From assembly GCA_002714465.1 (NCBI GenBank), contig PAXL01000014.1:1-11440 (forward strand): DNA of 11,440 nucleotides. The letters are read 5' to 3'. Within the stretch, counting starts at the first letter, position 1, and each line of letters starts with the position of its first letter. This DNA comes from Gemmatimonadota bacterium (GTDB lineage: Bacteria; Latescibacterota; UBA2968). Shown here piece by piece: positions 1 to 11,440 of the stretch. Below the pieces are notes generated by a model, which worked only from the letters and a program-made list of their open reading frames with translations, did no database searches and was not told where the DNA came from. A program made the position numbers and the translations under genes.

Positions 1-1222
1 AACCCCGCACCATATACGCCTGCAGCACCCCGCTCTCATCCGAATTGAAGAATCCGGATCGCCCGTTCGGTGACAGGAACGGATGGATATGGGTGTCCTT
101 CGTCCAGGATGATCCCGGGTCAGCCACCTTCCGTGCGTTCGTCATTGGACCGTTGTCTTCCTCCGGCATGTCGAACAGCCAGACAGTGCCGCCCCCGTCT
201 CTCGGTCCTACATCCGTGATCAGACGTCTCCCTCCGATGTCTGTGGCAAAGTGCCAGAAGTTGGGGCCGTCGAAGTCACGGGACAGGTCGTTTCTCCAGC
301 TGTTCGGTGCGTTGATTCCATCGTGACCCGAATGCGGTACTGCTTTGCTTGAGATGAGCTGCTGTTCCTCGGGGTCACGCGTGTTCGTGCTCGTGATGGC
401 GAAATCCGATCGTCCTACCCAACACTGGTGGCCCTGACAGTGTTCGTTCCCGTCACGTCCCCAGGGGAAGTTTCTGAAGTTCGTTCCGTCGTCGCGGATC
501 AGGTGGATGTCCGCACCTGCTCCGCTCACGAGCTGAATCAGGTCGCCCTTCGTGCTGACCGTGTTCCCGTGGTTCTCCTGGATCATGATGTCGTGGGATG
601 CGTCCGGGTCCGTCTGGCGTGTGTATTGAGGGTGGATGTTGCACCAGGATGTGCCCTCGAAGATCAGTCGGACCGATGGTTCGTCTATCTCGAAGACGAG
701 GAGACCCCAAGGTGCGCCGACCGTTTGCCCGTCTCCGAGGAATCCCGAGATCGCGATCCGCTTGCCGTCGGACGAAATTGTTGATAGCGGATAGGGGCGG
801 CTGAGACGGTAGCTCGTGTCAGGGATCGCGTGATCCAGCACGAACAGGGTCTCTCTATCACTACCGCTGAGCTTAACACGTTTCAGCGTAAGACGGCCAC
901 CATTCGTCTCTGTCTCGTCGACGAAATAGTATAGGTATTCGCCGTCAGGCGAGATCGATGGACCGGTCGTACCGGGCTCAGTCGTGATGGGGGTCAGGCT
1001 GCAGTTGTCTTCAAGGTTACAGAGTAGGAACTGATGCTCTGGGTCACGAGGGTCCGACCCGTGTGGGTGAGCCGATCGATGAATGATCAGTCGTTCCGAG
1101 TCTGGTGTGAAGATTTGCGCCTCCATATAGATGTGCGAAGACGGTAGCGCTTCATCCGTTAGCTGGATGATTTCGAGTGCCTTTCGATTGGCCGAGGGCA
1201 CGAGATCTGGACGTGGTTTCAT
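1..1222 (-). CDS. Oligogalacturonate-lyase-like (PL22-type) beta-propeller protein, 3' end outside window
   Basis: The frame is open from the ATG at 1222 to the left edge, giving 407 residues without a stop. AGGAGG lies 4 nt before the ATG and there is no signal peptide, so the product is probably cytoplasmic. Recurring blade motifs are visible, such as SPDGEYLYYF (91-100) and SSDGKRIAISG (150-160). From memory of the PL22 family, NIHPQY (195-200), DDGTNFR (244-250), QGHQCW (263-268) and THIHPFLSPNG (377-387) followed by FFNSDESG (391-398) match conserved PL22 segments. That family uses three His and one Gln to bind a metal and cleaves unsaturated digalacturonate by beta-elimination. H265, H378 and H380 sit at the His positions, but the Gln position appears to be Lys 376 or close to it. 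Family membership is fairly clear; pectin-fragment cleavage is inference, and a non-catalytic or differently specific relative is possible. No neighbour is an obvious pectin gene. Confidence 0.72.
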   Translation of the reverse strand, partial: MKPRPDLVPSANRKALEIIQLTDEALPSSHIYMEAQIFTPDSERLIIHRSAHPHGSDPRDPEHQFLLCNLEDNCSLTPITTEPGTTGPSISPDGEYLYYFVDETETNGGRLTLKRVKLSGSDRETLFVLDHAIPDTSYRLSRPYPLSTISSDGKRIAISGFLGDGQTVGAPWGLLVFEIDEPSVRLIFEGTSWCNIHPQYTRQTDPDASHDIMIQENHGNTVSTKGDLIQLVSGAGADIHLIRDDGTNFRNFPWGRDGNEHCQGHQCWVGRSDFAITSTNTRDPEEQQLISSKAVPHSGHDGINAPNSWRNDLSRDFDGPNFWHFATDIGGRRLITDVGPRDGGGTVWLFDMPEEDNGPMTNARKVADPGSSWTKDTHIHPFLSPNGRSGFFNSDESGVLQAYMVRG

Positions 1223-1365
1223 GGGGCCTCCTGAGAACGAGTATGTAAGATCAGACGTTTCGCAGGGATCGCAAACGGCTATGCGTCGGGTCGTAAACCG
1301 GGGCTGATGGTCAGGATATTCGGCAAGTGGGAGACAACCTTAGCAGTGGTACGAGACGCGCGACG

Positions 1366-1595
1366 TGACTAGTCCGAAAAGTGCGAAAGGGCATCATCGA
1401 TCGAAGCAGCTTCTTGCGAGGCTGAACACCCACGATCCGTTTGTCCAACTGACCGTTCGATTAAAGTATCAGGCAGGTGGCATACTTATTCACGTGCTAC
1501 ATGTCCGCCAGCATTTTGGCAGTATGTCGCGTGTCGCCACGTTGGGTGAGCGGCACGCGGACGTCGTTCGCATCGAATGCGACGAGGATAACGAA
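1366..1595 (-). pseudogene. Decayed C-terminal half of a second thioredoxin domain
   Basis: Reading straight on past the stop codon (1596-1598) of the neighbouring thioredoxin gene, in the same frame, gives a degraded copy of that gene's C-terminal half. Matching pieces are VAFDAND (intact gene VKLDAEND), a GD pair, K.LA, TCLIL (identical in both) and SNGQLDKRIVG (intact PNGKLLKKLVG). The remnant has in-frame stops at 1497-1499 (TAG) and 1461-1463 (TAA). It lacks the N-terminal part that would hold the CxxC, and the cis-proline segment IPT has become YAT. It has no start codon or ribosome binding site of its own. It probably comes from a tandem duplication followed by deletion, or from loss of a once longer two-domain protein. 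Frame continues to a stop at 1311-1313, but resemblance fades near 1366. Confidence 0.75.
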
Positions 1596-2051
1596 TCAGT
1601 GAGTTTGAGACGCCAGAGGAGACCGGAGGAATGCTAAAAAGTCTTCCGGCGGATGATAGCCGACGAGCTTCTTGAGAAGCTTACCGTTCGGTGCAAGAAT
1701 CAGACAGGTGGGAATCGTCGTCACGCCGTACTTCCTCGCCAGTTTGCGCGAGTTGAGCGTTTCGTCTCCGATGCGGGCCATCGGCGTATCGTTTTCCGCA
1801 TCCAGTTTGACGGTCGTGTAGTGCTGTTTGAGGACAGCCTTGACGTCATCCCGCGAGAGGACGCGGCGGTCGAGTTTCTTGCAGTAGGCGCACCAGTCAG
1901 TGTAAACCTCGACCATAACCAACGTGTCCGTGCTGTCCGCGCGAACCAAGCCTCTAGGATAGGTAAGCCATTCTGCTTCGACTGATCCACCAAAGAGAGA
2001 GACGAACGCGATTCCGGAAACGATGGCTCTTATGCTGCGCATAAGCCTCAT
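1596..2051 (-). CDS. Exported thioredoxin-fold protein with WCAYC active site
   Basis: This 151-residue protein has a short basic N terminus and a hydrophobic segment (about 9-26, ending near VEA), consistent with a signal peptide and a periplasmic location. The thioredoxin active site is TDWCAYCKKL (51-60, Cys54 and Cys57). TTIPTCLIL (111-119) supplies the cis-proline (Pro114), and APNGKLLKKLVGY (120-132) is the usual closing strand region. The W-C-x-Y-C-K form resembles thioredoxin_7/SoxW- or DsbD-gamma-like domains that reduce periplasmic disulfides. The start at 2051 is one of two close candidates: an ATG three codons later (2042) is preceded by GAGG at short spacing, whereas the first has no clear ribosome binding site. 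It lies downstream of a TonB receptor whose plug contains a Cys pair; a redox link is only inference. Confidence 0.85.
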   Translation of the reverse strand: MRLMRSIRAIVSGIAFVSLFGGSVEAEWLTYPRGLVRADSTDTLVMVEVYTDWCAYCKKLDRRVLSRDDVKAVLKQHYTTVKLDAENDTPMARIGDETLNSRKLARKYGVTTIPTCLILAPNGKLLKKLVGYHPPEDFLAFLRSPLASQTH

Positions 2052-2123
2052 AGGTAGAAGGGAAGTGTAGATTAACGCCGAGATGCGGGTCTTCTGACGA
2101 ATTGGGAACCTCTAAAGCTTGGC

Positions 2124-2351
2124 CTATCTCGGTCGGATCTCAGTCCACAAGGTAGGCAGGGGGGAAGTGGGTCGTGTAGCGTCGCCCCCATGAAGTGTCG
2201 TGGCATTCCAACTCGAGGCCCTGTCAACGGTGAACTTGAGATCCCGTCCCGGATGAATGCCGACAGGCGCCACCACCGTGTAGTGGTCGTGGTTGAGAAT
2301 AGGGCTCACACACCTCCTTGTGTAAGCTAAGTCCTCCGTTCTGGAGCCCAT
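2124..2351 (-). CDS. Small hypothetical ORF directly behind a TonB receptor
   Basis: This 75-codon frame begins one base after the receptor stop codon (TGATATG), an arrangement suited to translational coupling. The same TGATATG junction occurs in this window between the intact merC-like gene and the small membrane protein behind it. I do not recognise the product. It has no signal peptide or membrane segment, one Cys, and a His-containing stretch NHDHYTVVAPVGIHPG (20-35). An AGGAGG inside the frame (about 2310) has no standard start codon at a useful distance. It may be a real small gene, the remnant of a larger one, or an open frame by chance. Apart from it, I see nothing else in the 2052-2352 gap. 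Confidence 0.3.
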   Translation of the reverse strand: MGSRTEDLAYTRRCVSPILNHDHYTVVAPVGIHPGRDLKFTVDRASSWNATTLHGGDATRPTSPLPTLWTEIRPR

Positions 2352-2352
2352 A

Positions 2353-4635
2353 TCAGTAGGCTACCTTCATCGATGCCGTGATGGTCCGCGGTTGTCTTGG
2401 TCCGTAAATGTAGCCTGCGTCGCGATCAATGCCCTGATCGAAGTCGCTCTGGTAGCCGTTGAAGATGTTTTTGATTCCAACCTTGATTTCCAGTTCCGGA
2501 AGCTGTCCTCCGAGCCCTAGGTCGAGATCGAATGATGCGTTCGCCTCCCAGAAGGCATCTGATCGCTCGAGCCGATCTTCTGCGATGTAGCCGGCCAAAT
2601 GTGGCACATCCATCGGACCTGTGTAGATACCAGAAACCGCCGCGCTCGCGAAGGACGCGAACTGCCAGGATGCGGCGTAGTAGCCGTAGAGACCCGGAGT
2701 ACGAAGCATTAGATCCGAGAACAGTCCGTCTGCCCACTCGACCGGGTCGTCATACCGACTCGACTGCAGGGTCAGGCCAGCTTGGAACGAAGTCTTCCAC
2801 GTCGAGGCTCGGAGATCTAGTGTTGCCCCTTTCACAACCGCACTGCCTCCGTTCTTCTTCAGGAGCAGGAAGTTGCCGGCCGTATCCTCACCGTTGTCCT
2901 CGAGGATAAAAGCGTCTGTCACCTTCGTGTAGAAGCCCTCAAGCGTGAACCCCCAGTAGTAGTCTGGGTTACTGTAGGAGTGGTCGTAGGAACCTGAGCT
3001 GCTCCAGGATCGCTCCGTGCCAAGATCAGGAGCGAGCTCGATCAGGAGAGCCTCGCCTGAGACGGACTCTATGTGCAGGTCCTCGTCGAAGGTCTGCGGG
3101 GCGCGATAGCCGGTCGAGCCGGAAAGGCGGATCTGGCTTTCCCCGTTCAGGCGAAGCAGCAGGTTCGCACGCGGGCTGACGATCGGATTGTCGACGAACG
3201 AATGCTTGTCGAGGCGAGCGCCCAGGAGCAGGTTCACGAGTTCGACTGGCTTCCAATCCGTCTGTGCATAAGCGCCGACCGTTGTGATCGACTGATCCGT
3301 GAAGCGTTGGTATCCGACGATCTCGTCTTCAAGACGGTTGTACTTGAGGTCTGCTCCGAAGGTCAGGTCGTTCGTCGAGGACGCAGACCTTGAGTAATGG
3401 CCTCCTGCCGCGATTGTGCGATCCAGGGACTCACCATAAGCGTTTGGGTCGCGCCCTGCACCGTAGTAGCTGTCTCGTGATGTCCGCTGCGCGGAAAGGT
3501 AGAACTCGACCTCGTTCAGTTCGTCCGTCGCGAGCACGTTCTCATACGCCACGCTTCCGCCGATGACCGTATGCTCAAGCCATTCGGCGATGTCTGCTTC
3601 GTGGGGTTTGAACTCGAAGCGGTTTCCGCCTCGGCGGTCTTCGTTCAGGCTGTGGAATTCGAAGGTAAGCTTGCTCAGGAGACTCGGTCTAAGGTGGCTG
3701 CGCAGGCCGAAGGAGGCGTTCTGGAGCTTTACGATCTCCGAGAAGTCGTCATGGTCGTGGTCGTAGGGCGAGCGCGAACGGGCCAGACCAAACAGCGAGA
3801 CACCGGCACGCAGATCGTCGGATACATAGGTGGTCGAGACGCTGACCTTGTGGTCATCTGCTCCCCCGTTGAGGAATGATTTTGAGGCGGTGACGTCGAA
3901 GCCCGTTTTGATCGCCTCTCGCGTGATGACATTGACCGTCCCAGCAATCGCGTTACCGCCGTAGAGGGCCGAACCGCCGCCGCGAACGACTTCGATCTGC
4001 TCGACCATTGATGTCGGGATTTGCTCGAGACCATAGACGCCGTTGAGAGCGCTGAAGATCGGTCGACCGTCGATCAGGATCTGCGAGTAGCCCCCCTCGA
4101 GTCCGTTGATTCGGAGCTGAGTGAAGCCGCAGTTCTGACAGTTGTTCTCCACGCGAAGACCCGGCTGGAAGACGATGCCATCGGCAAGCGTTTCGGACTG
4201 TGTGTCCGCGAAAAGTTTGTCGTCGACTATGTTGACGATGACCGGGACGTCGCGCTTGTGTTTCTTGGTGCGGGTCGCGGTGATGACCATATCCTTGCCA
4301 CGCAGGTCGGATTCTGTCAGCTTGATCACGAGACCATTGCGTCCTGTCTCATGGCCAACCTGAACTTCCGTCTGGCCGTAACCGACCATCGAGACGCGGA
4401 TCGTGAACTCGTCCGATACGACTTGTTTGAGAATGAAGTGTCCTTCTGAGTCGGCAACGGAACCTATTCCTGTTCCCAAGACGACGACGTTTGCCCCAGG
4501 AAGAGGTTCACCCGTTAAGAAGTCGACCACGGTACCGTTGACCGGCCCCTGTTCCGCTGAAAGGGGCATCGCAAGCAGCAGACCTAGCACAACCAGCTTG
4601 AGAATGCATGTCGGAATATGTCGTAAGTCGTCCAT
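2353..4635 (-). CDS. TonB-dependent outer-membrane receptor with CQNCGF plug motif
   Basis: I chose the ATG at 4635 (760 residues). It gives a good signal peptide (hydrophobic CILKLVVLGLLLAMPLSA) and has AAAGG 8 nt upstream; the frame could open further out only at a TTG. The order is a CarboxypepD_reg-like domain (VNGTVVDFLTGEPLPGANV onward), then a plug with RDVPVIVNIVDD, then ENNCQNCGFTQLRINGLEGG, ILIDGRPIFSALNGVYGLEQIP, and IEVVRGGGSALYGGNAIAG. A beta-barrel follows, ending in an aromatic Tyr after PRTITASMKVAY. Receptors with a CQNCGF plug are a recognisable group in Bacteroidota and relatives; I do not know a proven substrate. The neighbouring metal genes make a metal or metal chelate the likeliest cargo. 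The Cys pair could bind metal or form a disulfide, and a thioredoxin-fold protein is encoded shortly downstream. Confidence 0.92.
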   Translation of the reverse strand: MDDLRHIPTCILKLVVLGLLLAMPLSAEQGPVNGTVVDFLTGEPLPGANVVVLGTGIGSVADSEGHFILKQVVSDEFTIRVSMVGYGQTEVQVGHETGRNGLVIKLTESDLRGKDMVITATRTKKHKRDVPVIVNIVDDKLFADTQSETLADGIVFQPGLRVENNCQNCGFTQLRINGLEGGYSQILIDGRPIFSALNGVYGLEQIPTSMVEQIEVVRGGGSALYGGNAIAGTVNVITREAIKTGFDVTASKSFLNGGADDHKVSVSTTYVSDDLRAGVSLFGLARSRSPYDHDHDDFSEIVKLQNASFGLRSHLRPSLLSKLTFEFHSLNEDRRGGNRFEFKPHEADIAEWLEHTVIGGSVAYENVLATDELNEVEFYLSAQRTSRDSYYGAGRDPNAYGESLDRTIAAGGHYSRSASSTNDLTFGADLKYNRLEDEIVGYQRFTDQSITTVGAYAQTDWKPVELVNLLLGARLDKHSFVDNPIVSPRANLLLRLNGESQIRLSGSTGYRAPQTFDEDLHIESVSGEALLIELAPDLGTERSWSSSGSYDHSYSNPDYYWGFTLEGFYTKVTDAFILEDNGEDTAGNFLLLKKNGGSAVVKGATLDLRASTWKTSFQAGLTLQSSRYDDPVEWADGLFSDLMLRTPGLYGYYAASWQFASFASAAVSGIYTGPMDVPHLAGYIAEDRLERSDAFWEANASFDLDLGLGGQLPELEIKVGIKNIFNGYQSDFDQGIDRDAGYIYGPRQPRTITASMKVAY

Positions 4636-4660
4636 ACAGTAGGCCTTTGGAGGAGCGGCA

Positions 4661-4689
4661 AAGCTAAAAGGCTTCTGTCGGGCTGTCAA
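4661..4689 (-). promoter_or_regulatory. Candidate sigma-70-like promoter for the CQNCGF receptor
   Basis: On the minus strand a perfect TTGACA (4689-4684) is followed after 17 nt by TAGCTT (4666-4661), a weak -10 element. This places transcription start roughly 15-20 nt before the ATG at 4635. Just upstream (4690-4720) is an AT-rich stretch with the imperfect palindrome TAGTCTAGGCTA (4700-4711), which could be an operator. The -10 is poor, so this is tentative. Confidence 0.3.
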
Positions 4690-4725
4690 TAATATATTTA
4701 GTCTAGGCTAATAATTGTATCGAGT

Positions 4726-4746
4726 AAAAAAGCTCAGTGCTTTTTT
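4726..4746 (-). terminator. Short hairpin AAAAAAGC / GCTTTTTT, possible bidirectional terminator
   Basis: A perfect 8-bp inverted repeat (AAAAAAGC, loop TCAGT, GCTTTTTT) lies 14 bp after the stop of the nuclease remnant and upstream of the next receptor. The T-run could end transcription on either strand. The stem has only two G-C pairs, so it would be weak. Confidence 0.4.
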
Positions 4747-4759
4747 CAGTTCCGGTTGG

Positions 4760-4969
4760 CTAGAGAAGTTGGAATCGTGAGAGGACGGGATCGTGATCGC
4801 TGGCGGGGTCTGGAAACTCCGAATTGAAGTGGGCGATCCCCTTGATGACGGCATAATGGGCGACAAGCGGCGAGCTGTGGTTGCCCCCCTGGACCTGTGC
4901 GATCGTGACCGACTTTCCGGCGTGTACCATGGATGTAGAAAACGGTAACAACAGAATGAGATTACGCAT
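4760..4969 (-). pseudogene. Internally deleted ExeM/NucH-type extracellular nuclease remnant
   Basis: This 69-codon frame joins the two ends of a much larger secreted nuclease. Residues 1-18 are a signal peptide (MRNLILLLPFSTSMVHAG). Residues 19-45 (VTIAQVQGGNHSSPLV and VIKGI) match the opening of ExeM-type nucleases, where a segment like IQGSG..SPLVG..V.VEGIV begins an OB-like domain. Residues 48-69 (FNSEFPDPASDHDPVLSRF) match the extreme C terminus of the endonuclease/exonuclease/phosphatase domain, whose SDHDPV motif carries catalytic residues. These proteins usually have several hundred residues, so the whole middle is missing, with the join near codons 45-48. The reading frame survives across the join and the start has an AGG 8 nt upstream, so a short exported peptide could still be made, but it cannot be an active nuclease. 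Confidence 0.75.
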
Positions 4970-5099
4970 TGTGAAAGCCTCGGGGTCTCTTCGGGAATCA
5001 GCGAGGAAGAGTGTACAATCTGGCTATCACAACAACGTTACGGCAGGATTACGCGGCGAGCCGAAGCGGAAAGTGAGCTAAGCCTAGTTCTCTCAAAGG

Positions 5100-7370
5100 C
5101 TAAAAGTAGGAAATCCGATAGTTTAGACGCAGGTTGCGGCCTGACTCTGGCATCACCGATCGAATGCGCGAGAGGTGATTGCGATACTCCGTGTTGGCCA
5201 TGTTATCGAGAGTTAGCGTCCAGCTATGACGGATTTGGTCGCCTGAGAGTTCTTTCTGCGCATACAGACCAAACACAGCAAACGCGGCCGTCGGCATTTC
5301 GAATCTGTCTACGCGGTCCTGTTGGGCAGCCACCTCGGCATTTGCCCCGACCGTCAGCCAAGGATGTCGGTATTCGAGTGTACCGTTCACCTTCAGCGGC
5401 GGGATCCCCGGCAAAGGTAGGTCGTCATCCCTGTTCTCGGCGTGAATGTAGCTGACGCCGATTTCCGCCAGAAGGCGATCTGCGGGACGGGTGGCTAGAC
5501 GGAACTCTGAACCGAGAAATCTAGCATCGACACCATCGATCGCGTAGATCGGGAGTAGCAACGCGAAGTTGATGTCACCCGTGTTGCGCGGCGTCAGGAA
5601 GTTCGCATACTCGCTCCAGAAGCCAGTCGCGAGCAAATCGATGCCCTGATTTCGGTAGTGTAGGAAAGCCTCCAGTCCGAAGCTTCTCTCCGACCTGAGT
5701 GTCGCGTCACCCACCTCGAACGTATACGCTGCCAGATGAGGGCCTTCGTTGTAGAGCTCCTCGATCGTCGGAATCCGCTCTGATCTGCTGACCGAGAATC
5801 CGGCCGCGAGCCGATCGGAGATCGACACGAGCGGGCTGACCGCCGCAGACCAGCCGTGGAAGTTTCTGTCCAAATCCCCAGACCCCTCGCGAGCGCGTTC
5901 GGAGTCTCTAGGGTTCAGAAAAGAGAAGGCGTAACGTCCTGCGACCTGCAGCTCGAAGCGTTCTCTCGATGCTTCGTGATACGCGCTCAGGGTGCCAGAA
6001 AGCTGACTGGTTGGCGGCGTGAACACGAACGCCCCGAGCTCGAGTTCGTAGTGTGAGAGGCTGGCGCCCAGGATCGTCTTCGACCGGCCATCACCAGGCC
6101 CAACGTGCAGACTCAGATCACCACGGTAGTCATGGAACAGGAACTCCGCGCCGATGTTCCCATTCGACTCGAACTCGAAGTGATGGTAGTGGGTACGAGC
6201 GAAAGAAGCCTCGAGCCGATCCAGCGACTCACCCTCGAACTTATAGGATGCATTCGCATCGAAGACCCGTCTCAAGATGTCAATGTCCGCCCCGTTCGGA
6301 TGACCCCCGATAAAGCCACCGGGAATCCCATAGTCCGTGTTGAACTGGTCAAAACTGGCACCGACATACCCACGTTCTCCGGCATAGGAGACGCCGGCGA
6401 TCAGGGTGTTAGTGTTGATCTCTGTGTTATCGAGCTCCCCGATCGGTGTCTGCTGATTCCGGGTATCTCGGTATGTCGTTTCCCCGGACACACCGAGAGG
6501 ACCGAGGGGGGCGACGATTGACATTGCCAGAAGGCCGCCGCGGTTTACGGTCGACCCACGTAAATCGATTGTGCCCCAGGCTTGTGTGGGGAGTGTTCTG
6601 GGGAACTTATTCTTGACGACGTTTATCACGCCGCTGTTGGCAGACGATCCGTAAAGGAGGGATCCCGGCCCACGGATGATCTCGATCTGCTCGAGGTTGA
6701 ACATCTCGAGTGTCATCGCGTGATCCGCCGAGGTGCCCGAGAGATCGCGGGACTGCAATCCGGCCTGAGTGATCTGGACGCGATCGCCACTGAGGCCGCG
6801 TATCACGGGGCGAGCGGGGGCCGGCCCCATGCTTCGGATACCGACCCCCACCTCGTTCCTGATCGTCTCAGCAAGCGTAAGGCTGTAGTTCTTTTCCAGG
6901 TCCTTCCCGCTTAGGATCCCCAACGATTCCTGGAACTCCTCGAAACGCGTGTCCGGGGAATGGGACAGGACATCGATACCCTGCAAGAGCAGCACCCGGG
7001 GCTCCAGCTCCACCCGAAGAGCTGAGACCACTTCTCCGGAGATGCTGACCTCACGCGATAAACCGCGGTACCCGATCCTAGAGAAGGAGAGGACATGACT
7101 GCCGGTCGACAGCGTGAACATAAACTGACCATTGTCGTCGGTCGATGTCCCACGCGGTGTGCCTGACAGACGCACCGCCACCTCTTCAACCGGTTGTTTA
7201 GTTTGGCTATCGACGACATAGCCCACCACATCGACCGGCTGTTCGGAGTTAGAGAATCCCGCGAGGAGGAAGAGAAGGACAAGTGACCCGATCCATCTTT
7301 CGCTGATGAAGTAGGGGTAGACTGGTTCCTTCCTCTTCCGGTCCCCGCGGAGCCTAGTTAGACGGTGCAC
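5100..7370 (-). CDS. ZnuD-like TonB-dependent receptor, probable zinc uptake
   Basis: From the GTG at 7370 this is 756 residues. No ATG, GTG or TTG in frame lies between that GTG and the hydrophobic signal segment (IGSLVLLFLLAGF), so GTG is the best start although it has no clear ribosome binding site. It overlaps the lipoprotein gene by 17 nt, which suggests translational coupling. Domains in order: basic n-region and signal peptide, CarboxypepD_reg-like domain (VVGYVVDSQTKQPVEEVAV), and a plug with RPVIRGLSGDRVQI, TSADHAMTLEM and IEIIRGPGSLLYGSSANSG. Then a beta-barrel ends in Phe. The RPVIRG..GDRV...D.S..S.DHA pattern and the barrel piece ARTHYHHFEFESNG (about 6160-6200), followed by an aromatic/acidic strand, resemble ZnuD of Neisseria, which imports zinc. 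Zinc as substrate is inference from this resemblance and from the neighbours; another divalent metal or a chelate is possible. Confidence 0.88.
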   Translation of the reverse strand: MHRLTRLRGDRKRKEPVYPYFISERWIGSLVLLFLLAGFSNSEQPVDVVGYVVDSQTKQPVEEVAVRLSGTPRGTSTDDNGQFMFTLSTGSHVLSFSRIGYRGLSREVSISGEVVSALRVELEPRVLLLQGIDVLSHSPDTRFEEFQESLGILSGKDLEKNYSLTLAETIRNEVGVGIRSMGPAPARPVIRGLSGDRVQITQAGLQSRDLSGTSADHAMTLEMFNLEQIEIIRGPGSLLYGSSANSGVINVVKNKFPRTLPTQAWGTIDLRGSTVNRGGLLAMSIVAPLGPLGVSGETTYRDTRNQQTPIGELDNTEINTNTLIAGVSYAGERGYVGASFDQFNTDYGIPGGFIGGHPNGADIDILRRVFDANASYKFEGESLDRLEASFARTHYHHFEFESNGNIGAEFLFHDYRGDLSLHVGPGDGRSKTILGASLSHYELELGAFVFTPPTSQLSGTLSAYHEASRERFELQVAGRYAFSFLNPRDSERAREGSGDLDRNFHGWSAAVSPLVSISDRLAAGFSVSRSERIPTIEELYNEGPHLAAYTFEVGDATLRSERSFGLEAFLHYRNQGIDLLATGFWSEYANFLTPRNTGDINFALLLPIYAIDGVDARFLGSEFRLATRPADRLLAEIGVSYIHAENRDDDLPLPGIPPLKVNGTLEYRHPWLTVGANAEVAAQQDRVDRFEMPTAAFAVFGLYAQKELSGDQIRHSWTLTLDNMANTEYRNHLSRIRSVMPESGRNLRLNYRISYF

Positions 7371-8601
7371 TAATTGCAACCGGTATCGTCGCAAACGTTT
7401 CCTCTGTGTCCCCGTCGTGGAGTATCGACAACGTGATTGTCGTCGATCCAGCCGCTTTGCCGATGATCCGGAAGGCCCAGAATTCGGGATCTGCTGGTGG
7501 ATCGAATCCAAGCAACGATGTATCCGCGACCGCAATCCCAAGCGAGTGAGCCGGAACGGAGGGTTGAAACTCAACGTCCTTGTCGTCGAAGAACTTGGCT
7601 TCAAAGTGATCGGTGCTGTCACCTTGCGCCACCGTCAGCGATCCTGTTGTCTCGCCTTGGCCGGCTAAGGGGGATTCGGTCAGCACCTGTCCGCTTTCCT
7701 CGTCCTTGACGCGAACGCCAACCGGTTCACCGTGCTGACCCGTCTTAGATTCGATGTGAACCGAGAGCGGCAGCGTAGAGAAATCCGAATGACCATCGTG
7801 AAGAACGGATAGGATGACCGTCGTCTCACCCTCAGCGAGTCCACGAAGATGGAACTCGAAGCCTCCCTCGTCACCTGGATCCTGGTATACCTCCAAAAGA
7901 GTCTGGTCAGCGATTGTCCAACCGAGGCTAAGCTCGTTGCCCGTGGGAGCGGCAAACTCGGTTCCATTTGCATCTAGGAACTTGATGCTCAAGTGACCTG
8001 TCAGGCCGATTGGAGCCTCTAGATGATCGCGTAGTCCTCCCGTCGTATCGACTACACCCTGAAAATACCTGAAGAATCGAACGCCCGAGTCGATCAGCAC
8101 CAGACCCTCTGCCCCGAATTCCTCTTCCACATGAACAGGGATCGGTTTTGTGCGGAAGTCTGCGTGCTCGCCGTGGGTAATCTCGAGGATGATGGTCGTT
8201 TCACCGGCCTTGAGACCGCGGAGGTGAAACTCGAAGTCTCCTTCCTCGCCTGGATCCTGAAAGACTTCTAAAACGGTGGGGTCTGCGATGACCCAAGTGA
8301 ATTTCCATTCGGGAGTTTTTGGGGGTGCAAGCTCGCTCCCTGCTGAGTCCAAGAATCGGATGCCCCAATGGTTCGTTAGTTCGCCAACCTTAGCTTCAAG
8401 GTGGCTCGCATTGTTTCCAGTGGAATCAATGTTCCCCTGGAAATACCTAAAGAAACGGACCCCCGAGTCTACGAGTACTAGACCTTCGGCCTCGTAGTGA
8501 ACCTCCTGAGTAGACGTTGGATCATCACTGCCGCAGCCCGCGAAGACTGCGACCATAGTAAAGGCAAGCGCAAGAAACGCGCCTTGGTATCGGCAAAGCA
8601 T
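7354..8601 (-). CDS. Triple-repeat lipoprotein paired with the ZnuD-like receptor
   Basis: A 415-residue lipoprotein: the signal peptide ends in the lipobox VFAGC (19-23) and Cys23 is the predicted lipidation site. AGGAG lies 7 nt before the ATG. The rest is three tandem domains of about 120 residues: 37-159, 162-284 and 292-411. The first two are close copies offset by 126 residues (both contain DSGVRFFRYFQG, DPG.EG.FEFHLRGL and GETT.IL), and the third is diverged. A DH(L/F)EA or SHLEA element recurs in all three (67-70, 192-196, 331-335). A HGEHADF / HDGHSDF element occurs in the first two and becomes HDGDTEE in the third. The repeats look like all-beta Ig-like domains. Function is not known to me. 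Position and overlap with the receptor start suggest a partner that captures metal at the cell surface or hands it over in the periplasm, with the recurrent His/Asp/Glu as possible ligands. Confidence 0.85.
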   Translation of the reverse strand: MLCRYQGAFLALAFTMVAVFAGCGSDDPTSTQEVHYEAEGLVLVDSGVRFFRYFQGNIDSTGNNASHLEAKVGELTNHWGIRFLDSAGSELAPPKTPEWKFTWVIADPTVLEVFQDPGEEGDFEFHLRGLKAGETTIILEITHGEHADFRTKPIPVHVEEEFGAEGLVLIDSGVRFFRYFQGVVDTTGGLRDHLEAPIGLTGHLSIKFLDANGTEFAAPTGNELSLGWTIADQTLLEVYQDPGDEGGFEFHLRGLAEGETTVILSVLHDGHSDFSTLPLSVHIESKTGQHGEPVGVRVKDEESGQVLTESPLAGQGETTGSLTVAQGDSTDHFEAKFFDDKDVEFQPSVPAHSLGIAVADTSLLGFDPPADPEFWAFRIIGKAAGSTTITLSILHDGDTEETFATIPVAISAPSN

Positions 8602-8662
8602 CGTGTTCTCCTGACATACGGTTTGCTCAACGAACAGGATCCACCAGAAGGGACTTTAAAGA

Positions 8663-8684
8663 TGGTCCAATCCGTGATGGACCA
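8663..8684 (-). promoter_or_regulatory. Perfect 7-bp inverted repeat upstream of the lipoprotein gene
   Basis: TGGTCCA and TGGACCA flank an 8-nt spacer, 62-83 nt before the lipoprotein ATG and about 80 nt after the stop of the small membrane protein gene. In the minus-strand transcript it would form a hairpin followed by TCTTTAAAG, so it may be a weak terminator or attenuator, or an operator for the lipoprotein-receptor pair. No clear -35/-10 pair was found in 8602-8765. Confidence 0.35.
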
Positions 8685-8765
8685 AGGCGGATCATTGGTG
8701 AGAGCCAAATAGCCGATCGCCTAATTTGATCGACAGCTGGATCTATGTATAGCAGAGTGTTCGTG

Positions 8766-9053
8766 CTACCGTTGTGGAGGCGGAGAACGACCTTGTTGGG
8801 AGATTCGAAGGGTAGGCGAGTGGCCGACGGCGGATGAGATTCGCTTTTGGCCGGAAGCAATCAGTAAGACAAGAGATAGCGCCGCAGGTCCGAGGAACAG
8901 GACCTGTGCCCATTCACAGACAACACAGTCGGTTACGTGACATTCGTCCGCGTGGTCAGGCGTGAGACCGTGCGACAACGCGAATCCGAACGCGATAGTC
9001 AGCAGGGCCAAGGCAAGGGCAGTCAGGGCTGATTGGTTGCGGAGGCGAAACAT
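8766..9053 (-). CDS. Small membrane protein with His/Cys-rich loop (DUF2946-like)
   Basis: This protein has 95 residues when started at the ATG at 9053, one base after the stop of the merC-like gene (TGATATG); the longer open frame overlaps that gene out of frame and is less likely. A first hydrophobic segment (about 9-27) is followed by SHGLTPDHADECHVTDCVVC, then a second membrane segment (about 52-65) and a tail ending in RSPPPQR. The layout of a membrane or signal segment, a His/Cys-rich exposed loop with CxxC, a second membrane segment and a C terminus with a PP motif resembles DUF2946-type small proteins. These are often found beside metal transport genes and have no established activity. 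The loop may bind a metal such as zinc or copper. Family assignment is by general look, not a strong match. Confidence 0.65.
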   Translation of the reverse strand: MFRLRNQSALTALALALLTIAFGFALSHGLTPDHADECHVTDCVVCEWAQVLFLGPAALSLVLLIASGQKRISSAVGHSPTLRISQQGRSPPPQR

Positions 9054-9054
9054 A

Positions 9055-9483
9055 TCAATTGTGGTGGTGGGACTCTGTAATGGCGTCGTGATCGTGGCAA
9101 TGATCGTGGCTGCAGAGGTGCTGGTTGCGGACATGGCCAAGAATCAGGAAGGCGGATCCTGCTACTGTGATGCCCCGTTCGCCAAACTCGCTGAGCAGGG
9201 AGTGTCCGGCGAGAGCTGCCGTTACCATGAACCCAAGGCCGATCAGCCCGTAGAAGATGACACGGACATCCTTATGCGCGCGACAACCGAGCGTCAGGGC
9301 GAGAAGGCTGGTTGGGAGGATGATCCAGAGCAGGATCGCGTGGAAGCTCTCATCACCGAAGAACGTTGAGGCGATTACCGGAAAGGCGACAATGACAACC
9401 GGTATCAGGAGGCAGTGCACGGTGCAAGCCGTCGAGATCAGAATTGCGGCTTTGTCGCTGAATATGCGGGCGCGATTGAGCAT
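9055..9483 (-). CDS. MerC-like membrane protein with His-rich C-terminal tail
   Basis: This protein has 142 residues and four probable membrane segments. The first carries the MerC motif ACTVHC (19-24, Cys20 and Cys24), followed by a Pro-rich turn, FFGDESFH and HAILLW. The tail HLCSHDHCHDHDAITESHHH (122-141) is unusually rich in His and Cys. MerC proteins were described as mercury importers, but related MerC-domain proteins without a mer operon are common beside zinc genes. No merA, merP or merR is present here, so mercury resistance is unlikely. The tail suggests binding or sensing of zinc or a similar metal on one membrane face. It heads a two-gene unit with the small His/Cys protein and is preceded by a candidate operator at 9515-9530. 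The ribosome binding site (AAGTGAA) is weak. Confidence 0.88.
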   Translation of the reverse strand: MLNRARIFSDKAAILISTACTVHCLLIPVVIVAFPVIASTFFGDESFHAILLWIILPTSLLALTLGCRAHKDVRVIFYGLIGLGFMVTAALAGHSLLSEFGERGITVAGSAFLILGHVRNQHLCSHDHCHDHDAITESHHHN

Positions 9484-9514
9484 TTATGTTCACTTGAGTC
9501 AAAGTGCGTATGGA

Positions 9515-9530
9515 GTGTGTATAAACCTAC
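9515..9530 (-). promoter_or_regulatory. Candidate operator before the merC-like gene (site B)
   Basis: The plus-strand 16-mer GTGTGTATAAACCTAC matches 13 of 16 bases of the site before the regulator gene (GTATGTATATTCCTAC read on the minus strand). Five of its eight base pairs are symmetric. It lies 32 nt upstream of the merC-like start. The minus strand contains TATACA here, which could serve as a -10 element, so a bound protein would block transcription. The binding protein could be the RHH regulator or a Zur-like factor encoded elsewhere. Confidence 0.45.
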
Positions 9531-9594
9531 CAGCGAAGCTAGGTTGCAGCAAGTTTAAAATGAATATGATTATAAAGATTTATTTTTAAATAAT

Positions 9595-9942
9595 TTAAGG
9601 CTCTTCTTCTGTGACGTTCTTCTCGACACATTCCCCGCAGTCCAACCAGTGCTCCTTGGGTAGATTGACCAGCGCACGTGGGCTGCTTCCCCGCTCGAAC
9701 ACGGGGTGAAACAACACATCCCCTTTCTCGTGATGCGTTCCGCACGTATGACAGTCTGCTTCTTCTTTCAGTTCGACCGGTGTGTATCCCGCGATCACCC
9801 AGCCATCGTGACCCGTATGGGCAGCAAGACTCTGCAGCGCTTCCCGAATGGTACGTGACTTGTTCCCTTGGTAGTATTTGTCTGCCAACGTGTCGAGGAG
9901 ATCGACAGTAGCGTCATCGAGGGTGAAATTGAGTCGTTTCAT
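9595..9942 (-). CDS. Ribbon-helix-helix regulator fused to a Cys/His metal-binding domain
   Basis: This protein has 115 residues. Residues 1-42 form a CopG/Arc/NikR-type ribbon-helix-helix: strand MKRLNFTLDD, helix ATVDLLDTLADKYY, and helix KSRTIREALQSLAAH. Such domains dimerise and bind short palindromes with the paired strands. Residues 60-110 hold EADCHTCGTHHEKGDVLFHP and HWLDCGECVEK, giving CxxC (64, 67), His70/71, His79, His98 and CxxC (102, 105), a treble-clef or zinc-ribbon-like set of ligands. NikR pairs an RHH domain with a quite different nickel-binding domain, so this looks like an analogous metal-sensing repressor of another design; constitutive structural zinc is the alternative. 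GAGAGA 5 nt before the ATG serves as ribosome binding site. The gene has its own candidate promoter and operator (9977-10010). Confidence 0.8.
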   Translation of the reverse strand: MKRLNFTLDDATVDLLDTLADKYYQGNKSRTIREALQSLAAHTGHDGWVIAGYTPVELKEEADCHTCGTHHEKGDVLFHPVFERGSSPRALVNLPKEHWLDCGECVEKNVTEEEP

Positions 9943-9976
9943 GCAGGTCTCTCGGCAAGGAGTGGACTATGGGTGT

Positions 9977-9992
9977 GTAGGAATATACATAC
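9977..9992 (-). promoter_or_regulatory. Candidate operator before the regulator gene (site A)
   Basis: The minus-strand GTATGTATATTCCTAC is an imperfect palindrome (six of eight pairs symmetric), 35 nt before the regulator ATG. It covers the TATATT proposed as the -10 element. With site B at 9515-9530 it gives a consensus GTRTGTATAWWCCTAC. Its placement suits autoregulation, but the binding protein is unproven. Confidence 0.5.
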
Positions 9993-10010
9993 TTTCAAGA
10001 CCGAACCAAA
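9982..10010 (-). promoter_or_regulatory. Candidate promoter of the regulator gene
   Basis: On the minus strand TTTGGT (10010-10005) and TATATT (9987-9982) are separated by exactly 17 nt. Transcription would begin about 30 nt before the ATG. A partial inverted repeat CCAAAGGTT/AACCTTGG (10006-10038) overlaps the -35 side. Confidence 0.4.
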
Positions 10011-10055
10011 GGTTGCCTTGTTCAATTTAAAACCTTGGCGGATTGTGGTGGACGA

Positions 10056-10441
10056 CTAACAACTCATTCGGCAAAGCGATTGGTTTCTGATGTGGGCCGA
10101 TATCATCGTGATGCCGCCGACGACAGGGAATGCCCGTGCAAGCGACTCGCCAAGTAGCTCCTGTCCGGCTATAACAGGTAGTCCCAGAACGACGCGACCA
10201 AGCAAGCCCCAGAGCGGCACCGAGGGACGCCGATGTCGCCGATAGCCCAGGATAAGAGTCAACAGACTCAGTGGGAGAACGAGTTTGAAGAGCGTGATGT
10301 GAAAGTGCTCATCTTCGAGTCCGAGAGCGAACAACGACGGAAACAGAACGAGTGGGCCCCCCAGAACAACTCAATGGATCAAGCAGGTCGCAGACCCGAT
10401 AATCGCGAACCGATTTGCAGGGTTCCATTTAAATGCTTCAC
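10056..10441 (-). pseudogene. Second MerC-like gene, interrupted (TGA at motif Cys, shifted start frame)
   Basis: The frame that ends at 10056 contains a MerC-like protein without its normal start: NRFAIIGSATCLIH, then TGA at 10371-10373, then VVLGGPLVLFPSLFALGLEDEHFH and three further hydrophobic segments ending in RNQSLC. The TGA sits where the second Cys of the CxxxC motif belongs (compare ACTVHC in the intact neighbour). Ahead of it there is no ATG, GTG or TTG in frame. A GTG touching the upstream stop (TAAGTG, 10441) with a GGAGG ribosome binding site would start in the wrong frame by one base, the shift falling at TTTAAAT (10433-10427). Two lesions make a pseudogene the simplest reading. 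A restart at the TTG at 10334 would give 92 residues without the motif. The upstream gene is probably co-transcribed. Confidence 0.75.
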
Positions 10442-10984
10442 TTACGGTGTTTGCTCTCCTCCCTCCAGTTTTTCCTCGATTTTCATCTGGTATGCAGGCT
10501 CGGTGACGGGAGGCAAGAGCTTCTCTATTGTCTCCTTGGGGAGAGAGGCAGGTCTGGCCTTCTTCAGCGTATAGAAAAGCCCCATATCATTGTCGGCCGT
10601 CAACGTCAGCTTGCCCCTCAGCACGATCGGGTCGTATGAGAATCGCAGCGGCTTGACCATTTTCACTTCCACGTAAGTCTCGGGTTTTCCATCCCCGCCA
10701 CAGAACGTGCATCCAACGAGCGGCAAGCCTGTCATGACGAAGTGTGAATGCTTCTCGGTCGGTTCGATCGGGATCATGTATCCGGCCATGATGATGTCCG
10801 CGTCCTCCAGCCGCTTAACACGCGGCGAAAAGGTTGCGTGGAAGGTGTGACCATCGTCTGTGTAGGTCATGTCACCCAAGACCTCCCAAGCAACCGCCTC
10901 TGCCGATTGCCCGTCTGTATTCGCAGCGACAGAATCAGACATCGACAGAACGCCGAACAGCAGGACCAAAAGTCGGATCTTCAT
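10442..10984 (-). CDS. Periplasmic DUF3299-like protein with CxxC
   Basis: This protein has 180 residues with a signal peptide (hydrophobic 4-20, cleavage near VAA). AAGGA lies 8 nt before the ATG. The core WEVLGDM, FSPRVKRLEDADIIMAGYMI, PIEPTEKHSHFVMTG and LVGCTFCGG (Cys92 and Cys95), followed by PETYVEV, fits the DUF3299 pattern, where a predicted beta-barrel domain ends in a CxxC segment. The biochemical role of DUF3299 is unknown to me. Exported members beside zinc and COG0523 genes suggest a metal-related envelope role, with CxxC as a possible ligand pair or redox site. It follows the GTPase gene by 49 bp and touches the broken merC-like gene (TAAGTG), so these three were probably one transcript. 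Confidence 0.78.
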   Translation of the reverse strand: MKIRLLVLLFGVLSMSDSVAANTDGQSAEAVAWEVLGDMTYTDDGHTFHATFSPRVKRLEDADIIMAGYMIPIEPTEKHSHFVMTGLPLVGCTFCGGDGKPETYVEVKMVKPLRFSYDPIVLRGKLTLTADNDMGLFYTLKKARPASLPKETIEKLLPPVTEPAYQMKIEEKLEGGEQTP

Positions 10985-11033
10985 GGTGGGATCCTTTCAG
11001 TTTTCCGCTAGAATCAGGCGAAAACAGAAGAAG

Positions 11034-11440
11034 TCAGGCTGACGCTTCCTCGGCTTGGAGCTCGGGGAAGGGATTAGGTAAGTTTGACCAGTTACTGCTA
11101 TCTTTGTCGAGGAGATCCTTATCGATCAGACACGCGTCGAGTCGGGCACGCATCGATGCTTCATCCATCTCCTGCCCTATAAATACGAGCTCCTGAATGC
11201 GATCACCAAACCGCGGATGCCATCCGGATTGTTCGTCGGGCTGCTGACCTTCGGGGTGATCCCAATATTTTCGAGGGGTAGCCGCCCACCACACCCCACC
11301 AGCGTTTACTGTGCTGACGCCACCTGCCTGCGACCATTCGTAAGCAACGCGATGGTCCGCCGCGACCCAGAAGAAGCCCTTGGAACGAAGGACGCCACCC
11401 CAGTTGCCCGCATCGTGTAGGAATTCCCAAAACTTCTCTG
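11034..11440 (-). CDS. COG0523/CobW-type GTPase (metallochaperone), C-terminal part only
   Basis: The 134 residues before the stop at 11034 are visible; the start and GTPase domain lie beyond the right edge. The sequence is a textbook CobW C-terminal domain of the ZigA/YciC branch: WGGVLRSKGFFWVA, AYEWSQAGG, AGGVWWAATPRKYW, FGDRIQELVFIGQEMDE, LDACLID, and an end with NPFPEL. Proteins of this COG0523 branch hydrolyse GTP, bind zinc and are commonly induced when zinc is scarce, serving to deliver zinc to client proteins. The His-bearing insert between the WWAA and GDR motifs is short. Its position at the head of the gene group supports a zinc-limitation theme, though COG0523 also includes cobalamin and nitrile hydratase chaperones. 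Confidence 0.92.
   Translation of the reverse strand, partial: EKFWEFLHDAGNWGGVLRSKGFFWVAADHRVAYEWSQAGGVSTVNAGGVWWAATPRKYWDHPEGQQPDEQSGWHPRFGDRIQELVFIGQEMDEASMRARLDACLIDKDLLDKDSSNWSNLPNPFPELQAEEASA

Follow-up and report, generated by a model that had tools for sequence, protein, structure and literature searches.

An immunoglobulin-like lipoprotein encoded beside a ZnuD-like receptor, a candidate zinc catcher of the outer membrane

The stretch of DNA analysed here, referred to as the window, comprises 11,440 nucleotides (positions 1 to 11,440 of the forward strand) of contig PAXL01000014.1, from the NCBI GenBank assembly GCA_002714465.1 of a Gemmatimonadota bacterium (GTDB lineage Bacteria; Latescibacterota; UBA2968). 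Its minus strand carries a gene for a lipoprotein of three immunoglobulin (Ig)-like domains, followed by a gene for a TonB-dependent receptor resembling the zinc receptor ZnuD. The lipoprotein, its family and its relationship to the receptor are the subject of this analysis. The features of the two genes are the following, in positions of the window:

7354..8601, minus strand: gene of the three-domain Ig-like lipoprotein, 415 amino acids
8533..8535, minus strand: codon of the lipobox Cys23, with the acidic GSDDPTS after the Cys
8128..8499, minus strand: domain 1, residues 35-158; candidate ligands H35, H143, H146 and D148
7753..8118, minus strand: domain 2, residues 162-283; candidate ligands H268, H271 and D273
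7372..7734, minus strand: domain 3, of the C-type, residues 290-410; candidate ligands H290, H332, H395 and E400
5100..7370, minus strand: ZnuD-like TonB-dependent receptor; start GTG 7368-7370 or ATC 7305-7307
6720..6725, minus strand: plug Asp-His pair, equivalent to ZnuD Asp99-His100
6174..6176, minus strand: Glu equivalent to ZnuD Glu340
5736..5738, minus strand: His equivalent to ZnuD His499

A preliminary description of this DNA had placed at 7354..8601 of the minus strand a lipid-anchored protein with two near-copies of a domain and one diverged copy, and all of this was borne out. Cys23 sits behind a hydrophobic signal segment, and domains 1 and 2 (the domains being of about 122 amino acids) share 60.7% identity, against 25.6% and 30.3%, respectively, with domain 3. 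All three were found by one profile, each at 8e-41 or better, a detection that is partly by construction, as the profile was built from domains 1 and 2 and iterated on the family. A lipobox-like Cys was present in 161 out of 173 family sequences, 139 of which had at least two Asp/Glu at positions +2 to +7 after it, as counted with an automatically chosen Cys and without a control set of other lipoproteins of these genomes. In the AlphaFold model, the domains are Ig-like, of the BIG2 type, and the closest folds in the structure searches were S-layer, LigA and adhesin Ig domains; these searches returned Ig-like and related domains, with no lead to metal transport. No PDB chain matched the lipoprotein sequence at E≤1. 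Pfam Big_2 was unlisted for the window protein and scored 27.3 for the relative P0041 (gathering score 22.8). Kinship to HmuY, whose capture logic the preliminary description had invoked, is not supported with this predicted BIG2-type sandwich: HmuY was absent from the fold matches listed, which does not exclude it, and no sequence match to it was found in the PDB either.

A search of 5.8 billion proteins yielded 81 homologues, including the query's own cluster. Family members carry one to four domains and come from several phyla (source names Gemmatimonadetes/Gemmatimonadota, Ignavibacterium and Ignavibacteriaceae, with one genome record of Latescibacteria). In the first phylum searched, the family was found in 31 of 64 genomes, and 7 more genomes came from a broader search among 386 relatives; a one-domain profile detected it in 58 of 84 genomes of a second phylum and in 4 of 5 of a third. 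A scan of genome contigs with the single protein returned 1 locus only, and a plasmid search gave no match. The gene neighbourhoods were surveyed for 92 lipoprotein genes in 85 loci, window included, sampled from all 31 first-phylum genomes with matches and from 40 of the 58 of the second phylum; the loci were chosen for containing the lipoprotein. A total of 11 neighbour families were kept by eye from a clustering that also gave many shadow-frame clusters, and downstream distances were measured between stop-to-stop open frames, so that gaps are approximate.

Conservation of a possible metal site was assessed in a census of 254 distinct domain sequences, taken from the homologues of the protein search, the loci of the first phylum and loci L068-L076. 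In the N-type domains, H109 (172 of 177), H112 (164 of 177) and D114 (163 of 177) form the motif H-x-x-H-x-D, and a first His was present in every domain aligning at its position (128 of 180). The C-type domains, which stand last in the protein, kept a His of the B-C loop (H44, 73 of 74), the hairpin H109 (73 of 73) and a Glu (E114, 62 of 73), as well as the first His in every domain aligning there (58 of 74). When the first His was unaligned, the residue preceding the match was Glu in 33 of 48 cases, and domain 2 of the window protein has E161 at this position. Moreover, H268, H271 and D273 were invariant in a 73-row alignment of homologues, and 24 one-domain relatives (29-96% identical to the first row) had 13 invariant columns, including the lipid Cys20, H35, H136, H139 and D141. 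The H.GH.DF element noticed in the preliminary description is thus real, and one His/Asp set is common to the domains, its positions not being scattered. The DHLEA sequence, taken at that stage for another recurrent element, proved otherwise: DHLEA of domain 2 and DHFEA of domain 3 occupy different columns of the domain alignment, and it was rejected as part of a shared site.

According to the DSSP strings of the models, strand F ends at the first and strand G begins at the second His of each hairpin pair (H143/H146, H268/H271 and H136/H139), and a two-residue turn separates them. In the standard Ig topology, one end of the sandwich holds the beginning of strand A together with the B-C loop and the F-G turn, and it is because of this shared end that one metal site per domain, built from the first His and the F-G hairpin H-x-x-H-x-D, is plausible in the models. 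Furthermore, stretches with at least five His within some 20 residues occurred in 24 of the 92 open frames. Such His-rich loops can be likened to the zinc-catching loop of ZnuA, as presented in part of PMC4557270, and the His-rich region of ZrgA is described in the passages considered of PMC9820375 as providing extra zinc sites, yet being dispensable.

Turning to the receptor, its Pfam domains are a plug, a barrel and a CarboxypepD_reg-like domain, and its best PDB match was ZnuD, at 1.2e-26 with the single sequence and at 5e-68 with a 15-row profile, followed in the latter case by PhuR (2.2e-29). The NCBIfam ZnuD model was also its best match, with 165.5 bits against a cut-off of 950, and because this is far below the cut-off the receptor is named ZnuD-like and not ZnuD. 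The buried zinc ligands of ZnuD, according to the passages considered of PMC4557270, are Asp99, His100, Glu340 and His499. Their equivalents in the 747-amino acid window fragment (residue 1 at 7343) are D207, H208, E390 and H536, all invariant in 15 of 15 receptors; in a set of 41 receptors, the Asp-His pair and the His (GPH) were kept in all 41, with the Glu read by eye in the same rows. The spacing of 399 between His100 and His499 fits the aligned receptor residues exactly, and a chain offset of 14, counted on the profile alignment, puts Glu340 on the conserved Glu of Y-x-H-x-E. Loop 3 of ZnuD, with its clusters 241-251 and 288-298, is described in the same passages (PMC4557270) as metal-sensing and zinc-capturing. 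The corresponding segment has 23-24 residues in 41 of 41 receptors versus about 75 in ZnuD, being ~50 shorter, and ~60 residues of the ZnuD chain remained unaligned at loop 3 in the profile alignment. Judged from these alignments, the receptor is devoid of the His/Asp-rich capture loop of neisserial ZnuD, with the ligands of the inner zinc site retained.

The receptor is the next gene downstream of the lipoprotein on the same strand. The translational overlap first reported is weak, and a long one found no support. The receptor frame has no ATG start, and the nearest usual one, GTG at 7368-7370, gives an overlap of 17 nt only if it is used. An alternative start, ATC at 7305-7307, was aligned by eye with the ATG of the relative at locus L001, whose receptor begins 28 nt past the lipoprotein stop. 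Many relatives have instead an intercistronic hairpin, found in 23 of 39 lipoprotein-receptor pairs (z < -2, 60 mononucleotide shuffles each), with none between the two genes in the window, L001 or L039; in the relatives having it, such a hairpin would favour more lipoprotein than receptor.

Across the survey, 74 of the 92 lipoprotein genes were followed on the same strand by a ZnuD-like receptor at no more than 1.5 kb; homologues are therefore usually accompanied by a receptor. The gap between the two open frames was below 0.3 kb in 70 of these 74, and a small gene or a second lipoprotein lies in between in the remaining four (L036, L050 and the first copies of L051 and L063). As for the 18 genes with no receptor within 1.5 kb, one (L034) heads a tandem pair and lies at a greater distance from the receptor, three are at contig ends (L064, L099 and L111), two are fused to dockerin-like proteins (L055 and L076, dockerin-like being a by-eye reading of repeats), eight stand beside MerC, an ATP-binding cassette (ABC) ATPase and a MacB-like permease (L073, L094, L095, L098, L100, L102, L105 and L108), one is beside COG0523 (L059) and three have no zinc-type neighbour (L070, L071 and L075). 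In both fusions the Ig domain follows the dockerin-like repeats, no zinc neighbours are present, and in L055 the first hairpin His is replaced.

The same association was seen at the level of genomes. Of the 64 genomes, 31 have the lipoprotein and 31 the receptor (E≤1e-60); 29 have both and 31 have neither (Fisher p 2e-13, a statistic that ignores shared ancestry), and the two lipoprotein-only genomes (G030 and G063) have the gene at a contig end, the cut receptor being visible for G030 (L053). Taking the receptor as the starting point, a lipoprotein lay within 2.5 kb upstream of 35 of 42 receptor matches of the first phylum. Moreover, four loci (L045, L046, L047 and L048) contain tandem repeats of a whole unit of small protein, lipoprotein and receptor, and because whole units are repeated, the three genes are suggested to form one module. 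As a separate case, L137 has a distant ZnuD-like receptor with no lipoprotein; its neighbours are a small Cys/His protein and a transporter that was judged ZIP-like by eye.

A zinc-type neighbour was defined as a receptor, ABC permease, ZnuA-like, COG0523, MerC or DUF3299 gene within 9 kb on the same strand, and one was found for 84 of the 92 lipoprotein genes. The motif H..H.[DE], with F, Y, I or V as the next residue, was present in 84 of 84 genes with such a neighbour and in 4 of the 8 others, the genes with no H..H.[DE] motif being L070, L071, L075 and the fusion L055. ZnuA-family substrate-binding proteins were found near 13 of the 92 genes, MacB-type ABC permeases near 17 and MerC-domain genes near 38; although MerC is a mercury-named family, its recurrence in zinc-type loci suggests a zinc role. 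In addition, a gene passing the same motif test as the small Cys/His protein of the window occurred upstream of 74 of the 92, and four representatives of it matched no Pfam family. Overall, the zinc setting of the lipoprotein genes is well supported, and together with the pairing it upholds the original idea of a lipoprotein that partners a ZnuD-like receptor and has a zinc context. In the window, the setting consists of the following features:

8766..9053, minus strand: small Cys/His membrane protein with an R-x-PP C-terminus
9055..9483, minus strand: MerC-domain protein (Pfam PF03203, 1.4e-24)
9595..9942, minus strand: candidate ribbon-helix-helix (RHH) regulator with a Cys/His-rich C-terminus (weak RHH_1 match below cut-off)
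10056-10445, minus strand: second MerC-domain gene, with an in-frame TGA
10442..10984, minus strand: secreted protein resembling DUF3299 (weak match below cut-off), sharing 53% identity with the neighbour in L039
11034..11438, minus strand: COG0523 (ZigA-like) GTPase, of which the window includes the C-terminal part only; its relative in L039 is a full-length ZigA

As far as the window reaches, this order equals that of L039, whose lipoprotein is 77% identical and where an ABC ATPase, a MacB-like permease, ZigA, a DUF3299-like protein, MerC, RHH, MerC, the small protein, the lipoprotein and the receptor follow one another. The DUF3299 neighbours presumably correspond to a zrg gene. The ZigA proteins of L039 (608) and L062 (621) exceed the curated NCBIfam cut-off of 600. 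Behind the receptor of L110 come a ZnuA-family binding protein (PF01297, 1.8e-80; best NCBIfam match AztC, below cut-off) and a COG0523 gene that scores below the ZigA cut-off.

Regarding regulation, none of three classical Zur/Fur-type patterns of a Zur box was found in 23 upstream regions. A palindrome, GTGTGTA-N6-TACATAC, lies at 9973-9992 of the window, upstream of the RHH gene, and at 2169-2188 of L039, upstream of the ABC genes; the pattern was derived from these two sites, occurs nowhere else in either stretch and appeared in 0 of 200 shuffles. It is possibly the operator of the RHH protein. The second MerC gene (10056-10445, minus strand) has TGA where its relatives keep a conserved Cys; no SECIS-like (selenocysteine insertion sequence) fold and no Rfam match were found for it, and selenocysteine, a nonsense change and a sequence error are all compatible. 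The window as a whole had no Rfam match up to E=1. Finally, downstream of the pair, the window and L001 both have a second TonB-dependent receptor (2353-4689 in the window) and a thioredoxin-like protein (1596-2051 in the window), and no other source among the 36 compared has both.

The reading that we favour, and consider somewhat probable, is that a two-part zinc importer of the outer membrane has the lipoprotein as its capture component, which passes zinc to the adjacent ZnuD-like receptor. Each Ig-like domain would bind the metal at one end, through the strand-A His and the F-G hairpin H-x-x-H-x-D, with the B-C-loop His as an additional ligand in the last domain. With its anchor in the outer membrane and, most likely, an outward orientation, the lipoprotein would collect Zn2+ and hand it to the receptor, which keeps the buried Asp/His/Glu/His site of ZnuD and would import the zinc with TonB energy. 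The co-encoded inner-membrane and cytosolic genes (ABC, ZnuA-like, COG0523 and MerC, in varying sets) would take the zinc onward, and domain repetition may add sites or reach. A surface zinc catcher is favoured because the receptor is without the capture loop but keeps the inner site, the lipoprotein repeats metal-type sites, and the genes travel together. Moreover, part of PMC5080379 describes acidic residues following the lipid Cys as a surface-export signal of Bacteroidota, and the similar acidic run of this family is suggestive, by analogy, of surface exposure.

Several observations weigh against this proposal. In 9 of the 92 cases, the lipoprotein gene has zinc-type neighbours and no receptor above the score limit within 9 kb, and eight of the nine sit with MerC and ABC genes, where a surface role is not required; a receptor is possible in L098, L102 and L108, in which a low-scoring TonB-receptor-like frame farther on is cut by the stretch end. 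Conversely, no lipoprotein stands in the 2.5 kb upstream of 7 of the 42 receptors. A contig end truncates one of these (G032), the second receptor of L051 is another, and for the five others no intact lipoprotein was found directly upstream. In L133, only a 91-amino acid lipoprotein fragment stands beside the receptor, and in L136 a weak lipoprotein match (8e-05) lies downstream of it. Because six receptors have no intact lipoprotein gene immediately before them, the receptor may function by itself. Furthermore, the clustering of the histidines in space derives from secondary structure and Ig topology, not from coordinates, the loop 3 comparison was made with neisserial ZnuD alone, and haem receptors likewise use two facing histidines, according to part of PMC4557270.

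The most serious alternative, which we regard as a real if rather unlikely one, is that the lipoprotein is a periplasmic acceptor or chaperone, taking zinc as it leaves the receptor and passing it to an ABC importer, as ZrgA or ZnuA do elsewhere. The eight loci lacking a recognised receptor close by, with MerC, the ABC ATPase and the MacB-like permease, would fit such a role; in addition, ZrgA of Vibrio is the proposed substrate-binding protein of such a MacB-like zinc ABC system (PMC9820375, in the passages considered), and His/Asp-rich loops reminiscent of ZrgA and ZnuA were seen. However, the 13 contexts with a ZnuA-family protein already have a substrate-binding protein, the acidic run after the Cys resembles a signal for surface export, and the missing capture loop of the receptor would stay unexplained.

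Two further possibilities are both improbable in our view. In one, the lipoprotein would be a metal buffer or sensor, binding zinc at the outer membrane, whether in excess or scarce, and tuning the receptor with no direct hand-over. The surplus of lipoprotein over receptor that the intercistronic hairpins of 23 of the 39 pairs could bring about would suit a buffer, as would the multi-domain forms and the presence of two lipoproteins per receptor in L034, L051 and L063. The close pairing with one receptor type, however, exceeds the needs of a general buffer. In the other, the pair would serve another metal (copper, nickel, cobalt or mercury) or a metal complex, for which the MerC-domain genes and the copper receptor OprC, among the receptor's PDB matches, could be adduced; all four zinc ligands of ZnuD are nevertheless conserved, and ZigA, ZnuA-family and zrg-like ABC neighbours accompany part of the loci. 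Lastly, it is hardly credible that this is an ordinary Ig-like protein of the surface or of adhesion whose histidines are incidental, as the nearest folds (S-layer, LigA and adhesin) might indicate, since the few invariant residues include the His/Asp set and the motif tracks the zinc neighbourhood.

Pairs of a lipoprotein and a TonB-dependent receptor are already known as a kind; HmuY is a haem lipoprotein adjoining a TonB-dependent receptor gene, and BtuG/BtuB are the names of the vitamin B12 system of Bacteroides. The window lipoprotein has a pairing similar to that of HmuY and differs from it by its predicted BIG2-like Ig fold. Surface lipoproteins of Bacteroides (PMC6143338) likewise capture a small ligand for uptake, vitamin B12, different from the one proposed here. 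The TbpA/TbpB and HpuA/HpuB systems (PMC7857515, in part) have in common the logic of a surface lipoprotein with a TonB-dependent receptor, but their lipoproteins, of the beta-barrel/handle type, capture iron or haem proteins of the host, in contrast to Ig-like domains with a putative metal site; the review text available (PMC7857515) makes no mention of ZnuD, and its passages name no zinc pair. Compared with ZnuD of Neisseria (PMC4557270, in part), the neighbour receptor belongs to the same plug/barrel family and has all four high-affinity zinc ligands, but is below the NCBIfam cut-off, without loop 3, and with a CarboxypepD_reg-like N-terminal domain and a lipoprotein partner. TseZ-HmuR also involves a zinc-binding protein delivering zinc to a TonB-dependent receptor; TseZ, as described in part of PMC8602904, is secreted by the type VI secretion system and its partner is a haem receptor, whereas the window protein is lipid-anchored, co-encoded and repeat-built. 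With ZrgABCDE, a zinc ABC operon of Vibrio, the 17 neighbourhoods share the MacB-type kind of permease; ZrgA is periplasmic in the passages considered (PMC9820375), unlike the proposed surface lipoprotein, whose sequence matched no PDB chain at E≤1.

In the titles and abstract starts listed by literature searches on zinc-binding lipoproteins with TonB-dependent receptors, no description of the family or of a lipoprotein partner of ZnuD was found; TbpAB/HpuAB, the Bacteroides B12 lipoproteins and TseZ-HmuR come closest among published ideas. The family is apparently undescribed. We regard it as an evenly balanced proposition that these proteins are a multi-phylum family of surface zinc-catcher lipoproteins, with one to four metal-binding Ig domains, which replace capture by the His-rich loop of ZnuD and make up, with the receptor, a dedicated two-part importer, equivalent for zinc to TbpAB/HpuAB and to the B12 lipoproteins of Bacteroides. 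Zinc passage across the outer membrane is poorly known outside a few pathogens. If the proposal is true, ZnuD-like receptors of several poorly studied phyla would gain a partner open to testing, a separate repeat protein would have taken over capture from a receptor loop, and the signature of an HxEA...HxxHxD lipoprotein beside a ZnuD-like receptor would be usable for zinc-uptake annotation in metagenomes.

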